Shown here: positions 11,328 to 30,957 of the stretch, piece after piece
Layout: each line of letters starts with the position of its first letter
Numbering within the stretch: the first letter of the stretch is position 1
Source: Candidatus Omnitrophota bacterium
GTDB taxonomy: Bacteria; Omnitrophota; Gorgyraeia; Zapsychrales; Fredricksoniimonadaceae
DNA: 48,168 bases
Assembly: GCA_002753465.1 (NCBI GenBank)
Contig: PEAF01000010.1
Span: 1 to 48,168 of the forward strand
Direction: 5' to 3'
Notes under the pieces: model-generated
Seen by the model: only the letters and a program-made list of their open reading frames with translations
What the model was told of the DNA's origin: nothing
Database searches by the model: none
Program-made: the position numbers and the translations under genes

Positions 11328-12424
11328 TAATTCTTCACATCATTAACAATCTGGATTACGGTGGGGCGGAGAGGCTTCTGCTGCAGATGGCGCGCGCCCA
11401 GATCCAGCGTGGGCATAAAGTCAAGATCATCTGTGTTGCACCTGTCGGCGCCATGGCCGACCAAGCCGCCCGGATGAACGTGCCTGTGCTCTCGCTTAAT
11501 GGCGCGGCTGGCTTTTCAATAGTCAATGTCCTGCGTCTGGCCTCGATCATCCATCATGAAAAAACTAATGTTGTCCATAATCACAATCCTCGTGCTCAGA
11601 TCCATGGCACCTTGGCGGCCAGACTTGCGGGGGTCAAGAATATCACTACCCGACATGGTAATGAACGCAAGTCTATTCCATCCTTTATATGGATGCTGAC
11701 GGACATGGTTGTTTTTATTTCAAGGGCGACACAGGCGGCTTTTTTGGTTACCGAGCATGTTAAACGGGGGCGTAGTACTGTTGTGCATAATGGGATCGAC
11801 CTTACAGCGTTTAATTACGGGGACACGTACCATGAATTAAGGGGACACGTACCTAATTCAAAAAGCGAATTAGGTACATGTCCCCTTAATTCCTGTAGGA
11901 TTGGTATCGTAGCCAGGTTAGCACCTGAGAAGGATATTGGAACGTTGATCAAAGCCTTTCAGATCCTGGTTCAGCAAGTGCCGCAGGCTGAGTTGGTTAT
12001 TGCAGGCGACGGCGGCGAGCGCAGTAAACTTGTAGCCTTGGCGCAGAATGATCAGCGGATCAAGTTTCTGGGTAGCCGTGATGATATCCCGGAGCTTATG
12101 CATTCGTTTGATATTTTCGTTTTGGCATCTTTGACGGAAGGGATATCCCTGACGCTCCTGGAGGCCATGGCGGCATCAAAACCTGTGGTGGCGACCCGTG
12201 TGGGTGGAAACCCTGAGGTTGTGGTTGATGGGGAGACGGGGTATCTGGTCCCGGCGCAGGATCCACAGGCCATGGCCGATAAGATCTTGTTACTTTTGAA
12301 TGACCGTGATCTGGCTGTAAAGATGGGCAAGGCAGGGCGTGCCAGTGCTGAGCGGTTCTTCAGCATTGGGTCCATGACGGATAAATATGAGCGGGTGTAT
12401 CAGGATGTTGTTGACAGGGTTTAA
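11324..12424 (+). CDS. GT4-family glycosyltransferase carrying an in-frame palindromic insertion
   Basis: [20 protein letters not shown]...[11 protein letters not shown]...[21 protein letters not shown]...[21 protein letters not shown]; insert translates [25 protein letters not shown]. Confidence 0.92.
11819..11892. repeat. Palindromic repeat element (REP/RAYT-type suspected) inside a coding sequence
   Basis: GGGGACACGTACC + GAATTAAGGGGACACGTACCTAATTC-AAAAAGC-GAATTAGGTACATGTCCCCTTAATTC: 26-bp arms with one mismatch, 7-nt loop. Confidence 0.88.
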
Positions 12425-20846: not shown

Positions 20847-21659
20847 ATGAAGAAAATGACTTTGTTCCAATGTGTTTTTCTGGCCGCTTTGGTTGGTTTG
20901 GCATATATCCCGACCTTTGCCTGGATGATCGACCGCTGGTCAGTTCAGGACACTTATTATAGCCATGGCTTTCTGGTACCTTTCATCAGTGCTTTTATCG
21001 TATGGCTAAAGCGCAAGGAATTGTCGACGTTAAAGATCGATCCGCCGGTGTGGGGCTGGCTTGTTTTCGGGGCTGGTATGCTGACTTATTTGCTGAGCGG
21101 TATTTTAAGGGTTTATTCGACGTCGGGCTTTTCATTGCTGATCGTTCTTCCTGGTTTGATCCTCTTGTTCTGGGGCAAGGATCATCTTAAGGCCTTGTGG
21201 TTCCCGCTTTCGTTCCTTCTTTTTATGGTCCCTTTGCCTTTGGTCGTTATTTCGAACATGAGCTTTAAATTGAAGATCATCGCCACGCAGGCATCGGTCT
21301 TTATTATTAATGCGATCGGTGTTGAAGCTATCCGTGAAGGCAGTGTTATCAAGACGATGCATTCATATGTGATCGTTGAAGATCCTTGTTCGGGTATCAG
21401 GTCGCTTCTGGCCTTGATAGCGCTTGGGGCGCTGATGGCATATTTCAGCCGTCTCTCCGTGGCAAAAAAGATCGTACTCTTTTTATCATCAATACCGCTG
21501 GCCGTGGCGACCAATATCTTCCGTATCGTTGCCGTGACACTGGCCAGTGAAATGTACGGTTCTAAATTCGCAACAGGCGTATTTCATGACACCATGGGGA
21601 TTGTGGTTTTTGTGCTGGCGTTCTTCGGGCTTATGCTTGTATCAAGCATGCTGGAATAA
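20847..21659 (+). CDS. Exosortase
   Basis: Polytopic; YYSHGFLVPFISAFIVWLKRKE; catalytic EDPCSGIRSLLALIALG, ATNIFRIVAVT, FHDTMGIVVFV. Confidence 0.95.
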   Translation: MKKMTLFQCVFLAALVGLAYIPTFAWMIDRWSVQDTYYSHGFLVPFISAFIVWLKRKELSTLKIDPPVWGWLVFGAGMLTYLLSGILRVYSTSGFSLLIVLPGLILLFWGKDHLKALWFPLSFLLFMVPLPLVVISNMSFKLKIIATQASVFIINAIGVEAIREGSVIKTMHSYVIVEDPCSGIRSLLALIALGALMAYFSRLSVAKKIVLFLSSIPLAVATNIFRIVAVTLASEMYGSKFATGVFHDTMGIVVFVLAFFGLMLVSSMLE

Positions 21660-21673
21660 AATATTCAGAGGAT

Positions 21674-22297
21674 ATGATGGATAATCTCAAATTTTATATT
21701 GTCGCAGGGATATTGTTCGTGTCTGCCGTTGTCGGGCTTTCCTCTTATTTACCGACCAGGTTTGACACCGGGGATCAGGTGCAGATGTCGGCTTTGCCTG
21801 AAAAGATCGGCAAGTGGGTGGGTAAGGATATTCCGCTTACGGAGCGTGATTACGCGATCCTGGAAACAAAGAATTTGGTCATGCGCCAATATACGGACCC
21901 GGCGGGGCGTACGCTTTTGTTCTACATTATATATTCGGGCGATAATCGCAAGGTACTGCATCCGCCTGAGGTTTGCTATCTTGGGGGTGGGGCGACCATT
22001 ACCGAAAAGGCTGTTATTCCTGTTACCTCAGGCATTAAGGCTAACAAGATGATCACCGAGATCGCCAGCGGCCGTCAATATGTTGTTTATTGGTATAAAG
22101 CCGGTGCGCTGAACACTGAAAACTACTTCAATCAGCAGGCCAGGGTTATGCTGCGCAGGCTGATCGGCAAGAAAACTTCTTCCGCAATGATAAGAATTTC
22201 AGCTGATTTAAAGGATGGCGAGGACGCTTCTGTGGCCAAAATGATCAAGGAATTCGCTGTTGATGTTGAGCCACTTTTGGTTAAATATGTCCCTTAA
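21674..22297 (+). CDS. epsI: Exosortase-associated EpsI family protein
   Basis: LPEKIGKWVGKDIPLTERDYAILETKNLVMRQYTDPAGRTLLFYIIYSGDNRKVLHPPEVCYLGGG. Confidence 0.93.
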   Translation: MMDNLKFYIVAGILFVSAVVGLSSYLPTRFDTGDQVQMSALPEKIGKWVGKDIPLTERDYAILETKNLVMRQYTDPAGRTLLFYIIYSGDNRKVLHPPEVCYLGGGATITEKAVIPVTSGIKANKMITEIASGRQYVVYWYKAGALNTENYFNQQARVMLRRLIGKKTSSAMIRISADLKDGEDASVAKMIKEFAVDVEPLLVKYVP

Positions 22298-22443
22298 TGT
22301 TTACAAATGTCAACATAGTACGCTCTGCTAATCTGGGTGAATCTACATTTCTAGAAAAGATTAATTAAAATTCGTTGCGTAAAATGCCGTTTTACATATG
22401 CTTACAAGAAAGCGTTTTCTTTTGTAGCGTAATATTTCCAAAC

Positions 22444-22460
22444 TTGGCATGAAAATTGCT
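22444..22460 (+). promoter_or_regulatory. Sigma-54 (RpoN) -24/-12 promoter
   Basis: TTGGCATGAAAATTGCT: GG (22446-7) and GC (22458-9) separated by 10 nt, matching YTGGCAcgNNNNTTGCW. Confidence 0.85.
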
Positions 22461-22484
22461 GTATTAAAATAGTAGGGTGGTTGT

Positions 22485-22540
22485 TCTACCTTTGAAATAG
22501 GTTAGCCAAGGTAGACACCGAAGTAAACAAATGCTAACCT
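22485..22540 (+). ncRNA. Candidate structured mRNA leader: H-type pseudoknot
   Basis: S1 TCTACCTT (22485-22492)/AAGGTAGA (22508-22515); S2 AGGTTAGC (22499-22506)/GCTAACCT (22533-22540); loops 6, 1 and 17 (A-rich) nt. Confidence 0.6.
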
Positions 22541-22600
22541 GCAGTCGAACCTTCCTCGAAGATTCCCCTGCTTTAAGAAATGAATGGAAAGCGTATCAAA

Positions 22601-23470
22601 ATGAAATTCAAATTTATCGCCAAGAGCTTAACATTATGTGCAGTTTGCTTCGCAATACTGTCATTTATTCCATTACCAGCAGCGCAGGGTGGTATTTCCT
22701 ATGTGGCACCCATTCAGGGTAAAGTCTTGGCTGCAAAGCATATAGACAGGGCTTCACTGGCAGCTATCAGCATTGAAAATTTACATTTCCCGCAGCAGAA
22801 CAAGTCACGCGCGCCTGAGCCGTCTTCACTTTTCCTTTTATTTAGCGGCGTTGTCGGGATGATCGTGCGCTTTGCTCAGAAAAGTTTTCGTGCCTTCAAG
22901 CGTTTCATGGACTATGCGATCGCCTCAACAGCCATGATCGTTGCCGCACCTGTTTTCCTTCTTCCAGGTGTTTACCGCATATAAATTACACCAGGTCCGA
23001 TCTTCTATCGTCAACAGCGTGTTGGTAAAGATGGCAGGAATTTTATGATCCTCAAGTTCCGCAGCATGTGTGCGGATGCCGAAAAGGGAACCGGTGCTGT
23101 GTGGGCCAAGGCCAATGATGCACGCCTGACACCCATTGGCGGTTTATTGCGTAAATCCCATATGGATGAGCTTCCGCAGTTATTGAACGTCCTTAAAGGC
23201 GAGATGAGCATTGTCGGTCCCCGCCCTGAGCGCCCCGAGATCGTTAAAGACCTTAAGTTGGTTATTTCAGATTATGACAAGCGTCTGGCCGTGCTCCCGG
23301 GGATCACTGGCATGGCCCAGGTCATGAATCGCTATGACGAAACTATTTCTGATGTAAGAAAGAAAGTTAAGTACGACATCCTCTATATCAAGAAGATGTG
23401 CTGGCTGGTCGAAATGCGGATCATGGCTTTAACGTGTGTTGTTATGATCACCGGTAAAGGTGCAAGATAA
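22601..23470 (+). pseudogene. Bacterial sugar transferase (undecaprenyl-phosphate type) with N-terminal signal peptide and PEP-CTERM-like segment; interrupted by in-frame TAA at 22982-22984
   Basis: Same frame on both sides: ...RAFKRFMDYAIASTAMIVAAPVFLLPGVYRI*ITPGPIFYRQQRVGKDGRNFMILKFRSM...HMDELPQLLNVLKGEMSIVGPRPERPE. Confidence 0.85.
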
Positions 23471-27101: not shown

Positions 27102-27943
27102 CATTCCAGAAACCTTTTCTACTGCTCCTGTTGGGTATTCTGGTCGCCGGTTGCGGTCAGGATCAATATGCCATCGAACGGCAGTATTACCGTGTTCAGC
27201 AGCAGGCCAAGAACATCTTTACGAATCCCGACGCGACGCCGCCCAATGAATTGGCCACGACAGTCGATGCCTTGAATGAATTCATGCTCAAGTATCCCAC
27301 AAGCAATATTGCCGTTGAATCTCAGTTCACGATCGCGCAGCTTTATGTTGTGACCAAGGCTTATGACAAAGCACATGAACAGTTGAAGAAGATCAAGTCA
27401 GCGTTTGATAAGGTTGACGTCATTGGTGCGGAAGCGGTTTTTATGCGCGGGGCAGCCTATGAAGATGAAAAGAACTGGGCGGCGGCGTTAGAACAGTATC
27501 AGGCCGTGATCAAGAGCTATCCTATAACACCTAAAGGCATGGAAACGCCGTATTACATTGCCATGCACTATAAGAGCAAACTTCAGCCGGATAAGATGAT
27601 GGAGGCCTTACGTGAGGCGATTGATCATTATAAAGCCCTCACGGCCCAATATCCGGGTACGCCTTTGGCGCTTAGGGCCCAGGCGTTGATCGCGCAGTGT
27701 TTTGTAGAACTTAAAGAACCTGAGAATGCGATCAGTGTCCTGCAGGCGGCCGCAGAAGCATTTAAGGGCAAGGTGCCGACAGACGGGATGTTCTTGGATA
27801 TTGCCACTATTTATTATGCGCAGTTAAAGGCTGCTGATAAGGCTGTCGCTGTCCTTGAAAAAGTCATTCAGGGTGGTCCTAAAACGCAGGCGGGTGAAAT
27901 TGCCCGGCGCATGATCCAGAAGATCAAAGAGGAAAAGAAATGA
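27098..27943 (+). CDS. BamD/TPR-like outer-membrane lipoprotein
   Basis: Lipobox LLLGILVAGCGQD; TPR-like repeats (YDKAHEQLKKIKSAF, AALEQYQAVIKSYP, KALTAQYPGTPLA); ATGA overlap with upstream gene. Confidence 0.8.
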   Translation: MTFQKPFLLLLLGILVAGCGQDQYAIERQYYRVQQQAKNIFTNPDATPPNELATTVDALNEFMLKYPTSNIAVESQFTIAQLYVVTKAYDKAHEQLKKIKSAFDKVDVIGAEAVFMRGAAYEDEKNWAAALEQYQAVIKSYPITPKGMETPYYIAMHYKSKLQPDKMMEALREAIDHYKALTAQYPGTPLALRAQALIAQCFVELKEPENAISVLQAAAEAFKGKVPTDGMFLDIATIYYAQLKAADKAVAVLEKVIQGGPKTQAGEIARRMIQKIKEEKK

Positions 27944-29454
27944 ACGGGTCTGCAGTTTATGAGGACGGCAAAGCATTCCTGGCGTCAACGCTTCAGCGCC
28001 TGATCGGGGCATTGAAAGCTCATTCGGGATCATTGTTCTTATTTAATCATGAGAATAATGAACTGGTTTTAAGCGCGTATTACAATGCCAAGGGCTTTGT
28101 CCTGACGGATATTAAAAAGAAGATGGGGGAAGGTGTCGCGGGTTGCGCGATCAAGGTCCGTACGCCTATCCTCGTCAAGGATATTGATACTGATCCACGG
28201 TTCAACCGTAATGGCTTTGCGCATTATCGCGGCAAATCCTTTATTTCGATCCCGCTTTATACCGGTGATCATTTGATAGGCCTGATCAATATTACGGACA
28301 AAGATTCAGGCGAGCCTTTCACCGAGCAGGACTTGATGTTCGCGGACAATGAATTGAAACTCCTTTTGAAGAAACTCGAAGATCAGCGCACGCTGGTCGC
28401 CGAGAATGAGAGCCTTAAAGAAAAACTGGCCGGTTCTTCATGCGGGAAATTCCTGAATATTACAGGCAAGCATCCTAAGATGCGTAAGATCTTCGCCCTT
28501 GTCGAGGCTGTGGCCAATACCCGCGCGACGGTGCTGATCAACGGCGAGAGCGGTACCGGCAAGCGGCTTATTGCCCACGCTATCCATAATTGTGATCCTA
28601 TTGAGCAGAAGAAGCCTTTTGTGGAGGTCAGTTGCGGTGCGTTAACGGAAACCCTCCTGGACAGTGAGCTTTTTGGTCATGTTAAAGGCGCTTTTACCGG
28701 GGCTTTCAGGGACCGTACAGGCCGTTTTGAATTGGCGGATAAAGGAACTATTTTTCTCGACGAAATTGATTCATTTTCCCTGTCAATGCAGGCTAAATTG
28801 CTCAGGGTCATCCAGGACGGTGAATTTGAACGGGTGGGGGACAGTAAGACGATCAAGGTGGATATCCGTATCATTGCGGCGACGAATCAGGACCTGAATG
28901 CGCTCATTGAACAGGGTAAGTTCCGTAAGGACCTTTATTATCGCCTGAACATTATCAATATTGCCCTTCCGCCGCTCCGAGAGCGTGTGTCGGATATTCC
29001 TCTGTTGGCGCATGATCTTATTGGCAAGCACTCGAAGCAATTGGGCAAGGATGTTAAGGAAGTCGCCGGTGATGTGATGCAGCGTTTTACGCAGTATTCC
29101 TGGCCGGGCAATATCCGTGAAATGGAGAATGCCATTGAACGCGCGACCATCCTCGCTAAAGGCCAGTTCATCGGACTTGAGGATCTGCCTGATTATCTGA
29201 CGCTGGTCGAGCCGCAGCTGCGCATTGAAAGTGACCTGACGTTGAAAGTCGGCGGTGAGAGTTTGAAGTCAGCCATCAAAGATTCGGAATATGAACTTAT
29301 CATGCAGGCCCTTGAGGCTGCCGAGGGTAGCCGTACCAAAACAGCGCAAAGCCTGGGCATTGACCGGACGACGCTTTATAAGAAAATGGTCAGCTACGGG
29401 ATGCTTAAGGTGACAAAAGGCAAGGGTAAGAAAGCCTTAGCGCTCGCGACGTAA
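27940..29454 (+). CDS. Sigma-54-dependent transcriptional activator (GAF-AAA-Fis HTH)
   Basis: GESGTGKRLIAHAIH Walker A, GAFTGA motif, DEIDSFSLSMQAKLLRVIQDGEFERVG, C-terminal SRTKTAQSLGIDRTTLYKKMVSYGM. Confidence 0.95.
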   Translation: MNGSAVYEDGKAFLASTLQRLIGALKAHSGSLFLFNHENNELVLSAYYNAKGFVLTDIKKKMGEGVAGCAIKVRTPILVKDIDTDPRFNRNGFAHYRGKSFISIPLYTGDHLIGLINITDKDSGEPFTEQDLMFADNELKLLLKKLEDQRTLVAENESLKEKLAGSSCGKFLNITGKHPKMRKIFALVEAVANTRATVLINGESGTGKRLIAHAIHNCDPIEQKKPFVEVSCGALTETLLDSELFGHVKGAFTGAFRDRTGRFELADKGTIFLDEIDSFSLSMQAKLLRVIQDGEFERVGDSKTIKVDIRIIAATNQDLNALIEQGKFRKDLYYRLNIINIALPPLRERVSDIPLLAHDLIGKHSKQLGKDVKEVAGDVMQRFTQYSWPGNIREMENAIERATILAKGQFIGLEDLPDYLTLVEPQLRIESDLTLKVGGESLKSAIKDSEYELIMQALEAAEGSRTKTAQSLGIDRTTLYKKMVSYGMLKVTKGKGKKALALAT

Positions 29455-30771
29455 GGACGAGGGCAGCAGTTTTAATTCTTCGCGGTATTTAGCTACAGTA
29501 CGACGGGCGAGTTTCACGCCATTCTCCTTCAACAAGATCCCGCTTAAGTCCTCATCGCTCAACGGACTTTTCTTGTCTTCGGACTCGATCAGTTCGCGCA
29601 GCTTTATTTTGCAAAGGCTTGAAGACACGTCGGCGCCTGATGCCTGCTGTATGCCGCTGGTAAAGAAGCTTTTCACGGCAATGACACCCTGGGGGGTCTG
29701 GGCGTATTTGTTCATGACTACCCGGCAAACCGTTGAAGCGTGGATTTCGACTTTATCCGCGACTTCCTGAAAGGTGAGGGGTTTTAAACGGGACAGGCCG
29801 TTGATGATCGCGTCTTTTTGTATCTCGACAATGGCTTCAAGGACATTCCTGAGTGTGCTTTGCCGCCGTGATATCGCCCTTAAGAGCTCCATGGCGTCCT
29901 GCAGCTTGGTCTTCAGATATTCCTTAGCTTCGGGGTCAATGTTGTTGTTCTTGAGGATGTCGCGGTATTCTTCATTGATATAGACCGATGGGATATTCTC
30001 GCGGTTGATGGCTATTTCAAGCGCGCCATCCTTCTCGTCAATAAAGATATCTGGGGCGATCTCGGAAGGATCATCCGTCGAATAATTCTGGCCCGGTTTC
30101 GGGTCAAGGGTGGTGATCTTTTTAACACAGGCTTCGACTTCACTGACAGCAACGTCCAGCTGTTGGGCAATGTATTCATATTTCCGGTGGGCCACATCAT
30201 TCAGATGGCCTTCGATGATCTTCACCAGCAAGGGGTCGTTCATCTTGAGGGTGTCGCACTGGATGAGCAGGCATTCCTGGATATTCCTGGCGGCGATACC
30301 GCAGGGGTCGAATTTATGGATGGTCTTGAGGATTCCCTCAACAGCCGCGACCGACGTACCATGCAGGGCGGAGATCTCGGCCAAAGTTATTTTAAGATAG
30401 CCGTTCTCATCAAGATTGCCAATGATCTCCCGGCCTATAGCAAGTTCTTCATCGGTGAGCGGAGATACTTCAAGCTGGCGCAGTAAGACGTCTTGCAGGG
30501 ACGGCATTCTGCTCAGCAGGGCAAAAGGGTCAAGGTCTTCATTAGCCACAGAAAAGCCCCTGGGCAGACGGTCAGAGCGCACGGAAAGCCCTGATCTTGT
30601 CGGGACAGCGGCTTCTGCCGGCCTTTCCTCAAGAAAAGGGTTATTGACCAGTTCCTCGTCGATAAGGGACTTGAGGTCCGTTAACGGAAGGGCCAGGATC
30701 TCTAATGATTGCTTGAGCTCAGGCACCAGAAGTTTCCTGAGTTCAAGTTTTTGAGTTAGTTTCATATTCAT
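29437..30771 (-). CDS. rpoN: RNA polymerase sigma-54 factor RpoN
   Basis: Region I LTQKLELRKLLVPELKQSLEILALPLTDL; RpoN box ARRTVAKYREEL. Confidence 0.96.
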   Translation of the reverse strand: MNMKLTQKLELRKLLVPELKQSLEILALPLTDLKSLIDEELVNNPFLEERPAEAAVPTRSGLSVRSDRLPRGFSVANEDLDPFALLSRMPSLQDVLLRQLEVSPLTDEELAIGREIIGNLDENGYLKITLAEISALHGTSVAAVEGILKTIHKFDPCGIAARNIQECLLIQCDTLKMNDPLLVKIIEGHLNDVAHRKYEYIAQQLDVAVSEVEACVKKITTLDPKPGQNYSTDDPSEIAPDIFIDEKDGALEIAINRENIPSVYINEEYRDILKNNNIDPEAKEYLKTKLQDAMELLRAISRRQSTLRNVLEAIVEIQKDAIINGLSRLKPLTFQEVADKVEIHASTVCRVVMNKYAQTPQGVIAVKSFFTSGIQQASGADVSSSLCKIKLRELIESEDKKSPLSDEDLSGILLKENGVKLARRTVAKYREELKLLPSSLRRER

Positions 30772-30957
30772 AAAGTATACCTTATAAAATGCAAGTAACA
30801 AGAGGTGCAGCGCGGGGCATATTGGATCAATGGCAGGCATTTTTTGAGCATTTTATCGTTGTATTTTCAATATTGTGGTATATTAACGGAAGATTTGAGG
30901 TTAAAGCCTGATGGATGTGCATATGGCTTTTGTAAACTAAAACAAGTGAGGGGGAGT

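Follow-up and report, generated by a model that had tools for sequence, protein, structure and literature searches.

The window, that is, the whole 48,168-nucleotide stretch analyzed here, is part of a 2.18-Mb, 64%-complete genome (G000), and related loci belong to Omnitrophota. Genes for an exosortase and an EpsI-family protein are followed by a gap of 303 nt, then by a PEP-CTERM::sugar-transferase fusion gene that begins at ATG 22601, and then by several PEP-CTERM genes. The gap contains a strong sigma-54 promoter and a predicted RNA pseudoknot, and genes for a sigma-54 activator and for sigma-54 itself (rpoN) lie 5 to 8 kb downstream of this promoter. The genes are as follows.

20847 to 21659, plus strand: exosortase, EpsH/XrtA-like (PF09721, E = 5.7e-66; TIGR03109, 189.5 bits, below the cutoff of 208)
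21674 to 22297, plus strand: EpsI-family protein (TIGR02914, 81 bits; cutoff, 42.8)
22601 to 22984, plus strand: 5' part of the PEP-CTERM::sugar-transferase fusion gene, by translation, stopping at the in-frame TAA 22982-22984
23045 to 23470, plus strand: remaining sugar-transferase domain in the unchanged frame (Pfam Bac_transf, E = 1.7e-43)
27940 to 29454, plus strand: GAF/AAA+/Fis sigma-54 activator of NifA-like architecture (PF00158, E = 1.6e-68, plus GAF and HTH_8)
29437 to 30840, minus strand: rpoN, encoding sigma-54 (TIGR02395, 390.5 bits; cutoff, 277.35)

The window's exosortase matches exosortases from several families elsewhere in the class at 57 to 63%, compared with 45 to 48% for most of its own family, which suggests transfer or paralogous lineages. 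The in-frame TAA divides the window's fusion gene; the homologue in G006, a genome of the same genus, is open throughout (L026:4001-4846). The stop could mark a pseudogene, stem from a consensus error, or reflect expression in two parts.

The intergenic features, again one per line, include the pairing strands of the pseudoknot (stems S1 and S2, third loop L3) and a hairpin, P3.

22399 to 22428, plus strand: imperfect palindrome CTTACAAGAAAGCGTTTTCTTTTGTAGCG around GAAAGCGTTTTC, a candidate activator (enhancer-binding protein) site by its recurrence
22444 to 22460, plus strand: sigma-54 -24/-12 promoter TTGGCATGAAAATTGCT (GG-N10-GC), conserved in the same position at distant exosortase loci
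22471, plus strand: predicted transcription start, 12 nt past the C of the -12 GC
22474 to 22492, plus strand: possible competing 5' hairpin (AGGGTGG with CTACCTT) of the nested minimum-energy fold, which would use the S1 5' strand
22485 to 22492, plus strand: S1 5' strand TCTACCTT, with two compensatory pairs relative to G006
22499 to 22506, plus strand: S2 5' strand AGGTTAGC, with two compensatory pairs relative to G006
22508 to 22515, plus strand: S1 3' strand AAGGTAGA, its pairing compared with G006
22516 to 22532, plus strand: L3 CACCGAAGTAAACAAAT, A-rich, 17 nt (18 nt in G006)
22533 to 22540, plus strand: S2 3' strand GCTAACCT, its pairing compared with G006
22541 to 22571, plus strand: P3 hairpin adjoining S2 (GCAG..CTGC, GAA..TTC, CTTC..GAAG), -8.4 kcal/mol, with 17 of 1,000 shuffles as stable
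22586 to 22591, plus strand: likely ribosome-binding site GGAAAG, 9 nt before ATG 22601

The promoter is the sole intergenic perfect match to TTGGCAYN5TTGCT in the 64%-complete genome, and with its -24 GG and -12 GC ahead of a PEP-CTERM gene it marks the region as a sigma-54-dependent PEP-CTERM leader. Its anatomy (GG-N10-GC, 22444-22460) places +1 near 22471, so that S1 begins about 14 nt into the transcript; the 3' strand of S2 ends 60 nt before the ATG of the fusion gene. Both distances agree with the original prediction. A sigma-54 site before PEP-CTERM genes is already known in kind: Haft 2006 described a regulatory site of the sigma-54/PrsK-PrsR type ahead of PEP-CTERM genes in proteobacteria (PMC1569441), which shares with the window a -24/-12 promoter shortly before these genes and an NtrC/NifA-type activator. 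The window's activator differs in that a GAF domain takes the place of a receiver domain, and its score falls under the PEP_resp_reg cutoff. Moreover, that study concerns DNA motifs only, with neither "hairpin" nor "leader" in its main text (PMC1569441).

The palindrome GAAANCGNTTTC lies near the sigma-54 promoter in five of 21 Omnitrophota exosortase loci (this one with L012, L021, L057, and L062) and in 0 of 1,050 shuffles, and it is a candidate binding site of the sigma-54 activator. In several families (L057, L062, L064, L072, and L022), a short uncharacterized ORF of roughly 40 to 50 codons (e.g., MERIQYFVKEVRESWAEARRQLEIYFFLQRYIA...) directly follows the sigma-54 promoter and precedes the PEP-CTERM fusion gene.

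At 22485-22540, two stems had been predicted with loops of 6, 1, and 17 nt, and a rereading of the sequence found these coordinates exact. The strands of S1 and S2 are perfect reverse complements of 8 bp each, interleaved in the H-type order S1a-S2a-S1b-S2b (a and b denoting 5' and 3' strands), with L1 at 22493-22498 and L2 at 22507. No other 8+8 H-type pseudoknot occurs in the window, on either strand; none arose in 40 dinucleotide shuffles of its full length, nor when the 130-nt leader was shuffled 20,000 times, which produced 7+7 pseudoknots in 7 cases. A 7+7 H-type match (TGAATTA/GGGGACA) also occurs at 11833-11885; about 0.7 per strand is expected by chance.

We evaluated conservation of the element by comparing the window genome with G006, a comparison of two sequences. 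G006 carries the orthologous exosortase locus (68% protein identity), with TTGGCATGATATTCGCT and then GTTGTTCCGCCTTCGGATAGAATTAGCAAAGGCGAATAACTAAAACGTTAAAATGCTAATTG between the EpsI gene and the intact fusion gene, and a pseudoknot at the syntenic place after a matching sigma-54 promoter. In the window's stem register, the G006 stems are CGCCTT/AAGGCG (S1) and AATTAGC/GCTAATT (S2), with loops of 6, 1, and 18 nt. Fourteen of the 16 pairs are kept, 10 of them unchanged and 4 through double compensatory changes, two per stem (from window to G006, T-A to C-G and A-T to G-C in S1, and G-C to A-T twice in S2); the two lost pairs are the outermost of S2 and the second of S1. Four compensated pairs have a p of about 0.0006 when an equal number of 3'-strand substitutions is placed anywhere, and sliding the partner strands by 1 to 3 columns reduces the paired cells from 94% to 47% or less. 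A shuffle of the alignment columns, a test of little power for two rows, gave 38 of 500. When the G006 leader was shuffled, a pseudoknot with its stem length and geometry arose 7 times in 20,000.

Identity inside the pseudoknot is only 55%, against 45% in upstream and flanking intergenic DNA, indicating that structure rather than sequence is being kept. L1 reads TGAAAT in the window and CGGATA in G006, and L3 shares just scattered A-rich positions. The two sequences amount to one independent comparison, which is strong for a single one, and in this comparison the structure is conserved phylogenetically, as expected of a riboswitch. The covariation thus bears out the proposal that the leader is a real RNA element and not a chance arrangement.

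P3, a hairpin with an internal loop, directly follows the 3' strand of S2, and in G006 a different sequence (AACTTCtagGAAGTT core) gives a hairpin of the same shape and position, at -8.3 kcal/mol and equalled in stability by 86 of 1,000 shuffles. S1, S2, and P3 could form one continuous stack. The computed pseudoknot energies, -18.5 kcal/mol for the window and -11.2 for G006, are not below the nested optima of -20.8 and -15.0; they are crude values that leave out coaxial stacking and the longer S1 possible in G006. As the nested fold is of similar computed stability in the window (-20.8 versus roughly -18.5 kcal/mol), two states are possible; for the competing 5' hairpin, inspection by eye showed just a weak counterpart of 4 bp in G006. 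We rejected P3 as an intrinsic terminator because a U tract is absent after it in both species; TTTAAG follows in the window and AACTCCC in G006, and no Rho-independent terminator was seen. The likely ribosome-binding site lies outside the pseudoknot, about 45 nt past S2. Given this distance and the missing poly-U tract, neither common riboswitch output, a terminator or sequestration of the ribosome-binding site, is visible as an expression platform.

The original prediction held that the leader belongs to no known class, the GEMM c-di-GMP riboswitches included, and a search of the window against Rfam 15 accordingly returned no gathering match, whether to SAM-II, preQ1, GEMM, or any other family. 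At E values up to 5, the leader and its G006 homologue retrieved only implausible eukaryotic families. The SAM-II riboswitch has an H-type topology, and the preQ1-I riboswitch is an H-type pseudoknot as well (PMC11625349). The window element has in common with both this topology, its position in a 5' leader, and an A-rich third loop, but differs from them in its two 8-bp stems, its exosortase-locus context, the absence of a covariance match, and a fold that takes in neither the ribosome-binding site nor a terminator. The GEMM riboswitches that precede PEP-CTERM genes, as in strain GP59 of Methylophaga nitratireducenticrescens, are likewise RNA leaders of such genes (PMC12530212), but their fold is different and neither the window nor the G006 leader has a GEMM match. 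A leader pseudoknot for exosortase systems was not found in the open-access literature searched.

To map the distribution of the element, we built a covariance model from the two leaders and searched 86 order-level and 392 class-level Omnitrophota genomes, two sets that overlap. The seeds themselves scored 131 and 104 bits, no other match exceeded 26 bits, and no third member was found in either set. Of the weak matches (E = 0.02 to 0.9), eleven were examined and look like chance; most lie in coding sequence, and the best, L092, is mostly intergenic and forms a simple hairpin rather than a knot. Among the 86 genomes of the order, the pattern TTAGCNAAGG..GCTAA fits the geometry only in G000 and G006, and its other matches are about as frequent as in a reversed control. 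A DNA search of the window's own genome found no further copies. Within the genus, this exosortase is missing from G003, G004, G005, and G007, the one exosortase of G004 being a distant one at 29% identity.

An exosortase at E below 1e-60 is present in 78 of the 392 Omnitrophota genomes, and the sigma-54 site after exosortase and EpsI is kept at many of the loci read. Among the exosortase loci fetched from these 78 genomes, no leader after the sigma-54 site contains a comparable H-type fold. The search of Omnitrophota exosortase loci thus recovered covarying S1 and S2 in G006 and no third genome. With two genomes of one genus, the element is genus-restricted on these data, and its description as a general exosortase leader was too broad, as elsewhere in Omnitrophota such loci retain the promoter but have no pseudoknot.

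Several other explanations bear on the same observations. The leader might be a small-molecule riboswitch, with the pseudoknot and its A-rich L3 as the aptamer and with P3 or the flanks acting as an unconventional output on translation or Rho access. Topology and size resemble those of H-type riboswitches, L3 could line the S1 groove, the competing nested fold is nearly isoenergetic, and c-di-GMP riboswitches reported upstream of PEP-CTERM genes elsewhere set a precedent (PMC12530212). Even so, no credible Rfam match appears at E values up to 5, a terminator is absent, and the ribosome-binding site is not sequestered. Aptamer cores are usually strongly conserved, yet loop conservation between the window and G006 is weak; presence as a single copy in one genus is likewise unusual for a metabolite riboswitch. 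We regard this explanation, the main rival of the one we favor, as unlikely. Accidental formation of the pseudoknot, with the likeness to G006 due to shared ancestry only, is considerably less probable still: there are just two members and all other exosortase leaders examined lack the fold, but no shuffle of the window leader reproduced it (0/20,000), and ancestry alone does not give four compensatory double changes (p about 0.0006).

The overlapping inverted repeats past the promoter are also DNA palindromes, with spacers of 15 and 26 nt, and might serve as operators for a repressor or an architectural protein. A repressor site would preserve sequence, however, whereas here positions change as pairs; within each of the interleaved stems the changes on one arm correspond to those on the other, for which DNA operators spaced in this way have no need. 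We consider this reading highly improbable, and place equally little confidence in a translated upstream ORF that starts at ATG 22531 in the 3' strand of S2, the pseudoknot controlling this start codon and hence downstream translation. AAATGCTAA, including the ATG, is identical in the window and G006, but S2 pairing explains this motif, no good Shine-Dalgarno sequence lies ahead, and the ORF has 63 codons in the window against 18 in G006 by eye, with different residues. A conserved upstream ORF at 22531 was rejected, as the frames differ between the two genomes.

Taken together, the leader looks like a genuine, genus-restricted structured RNA, and by sequence comparison it is probably a real, previously undescribed control element, seen in two genomes. 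This bears out the structured leader RNA of the original prediction; the coupling of the exosortase/PEP-CTERM system to a signal, also proposed there, is conjectural. The explanation we favor, with roughly even confidence, is that 22485-22571 (pseudoknot and P3) forms a structured RNA leader, conserved and acting in cis, which controls mRNA lifetime or translation. It would occupy the extreme 5' end of a sigma-54-driven mRNA that carries the PEP-CTERM::sugar-transferase gene together with the PEP-CTERM genes that follow. Once sigma-54 and its activator had switched on transcription, the leader would fold into a near-continuous S1-S2-P3 stack, which may govern the persistence of the mRNA or the efficiency of its translation, whether by protecting the 5' end or by binding a protein; pairing of the 5' strand at 22474-22480 with S1a could yield a second, unknotted state. 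Because the fold includes neither the likely ribosome-binding site nor a terminator, we favor, inferring this step by exclusion, an influence on mRNA lifetime or on the loading of ribosomes, which could be constitutive or exerted by a bound protein. A more tentative possibility is that the leader represents a new class of pseudoknotted leaders, stacked on a second hairpin, that would place the sigma-54-driven exosortase/PEP-CTERM operon under a second, RNA-level control responsive to a ligand or protein.

In the literature that we reached, RNA-level control of exosortase/PEP-CTERM systems is represented only by c-di-GMP riboswitches. The leader described here, in which a covarying pseudoknot opens a sigma-54 transcript, is a candidate for a new RNA family that can be put to the test; it comes from Omnitrophota, a phylum with hardly any experimental work, and is short enough for direct probing.
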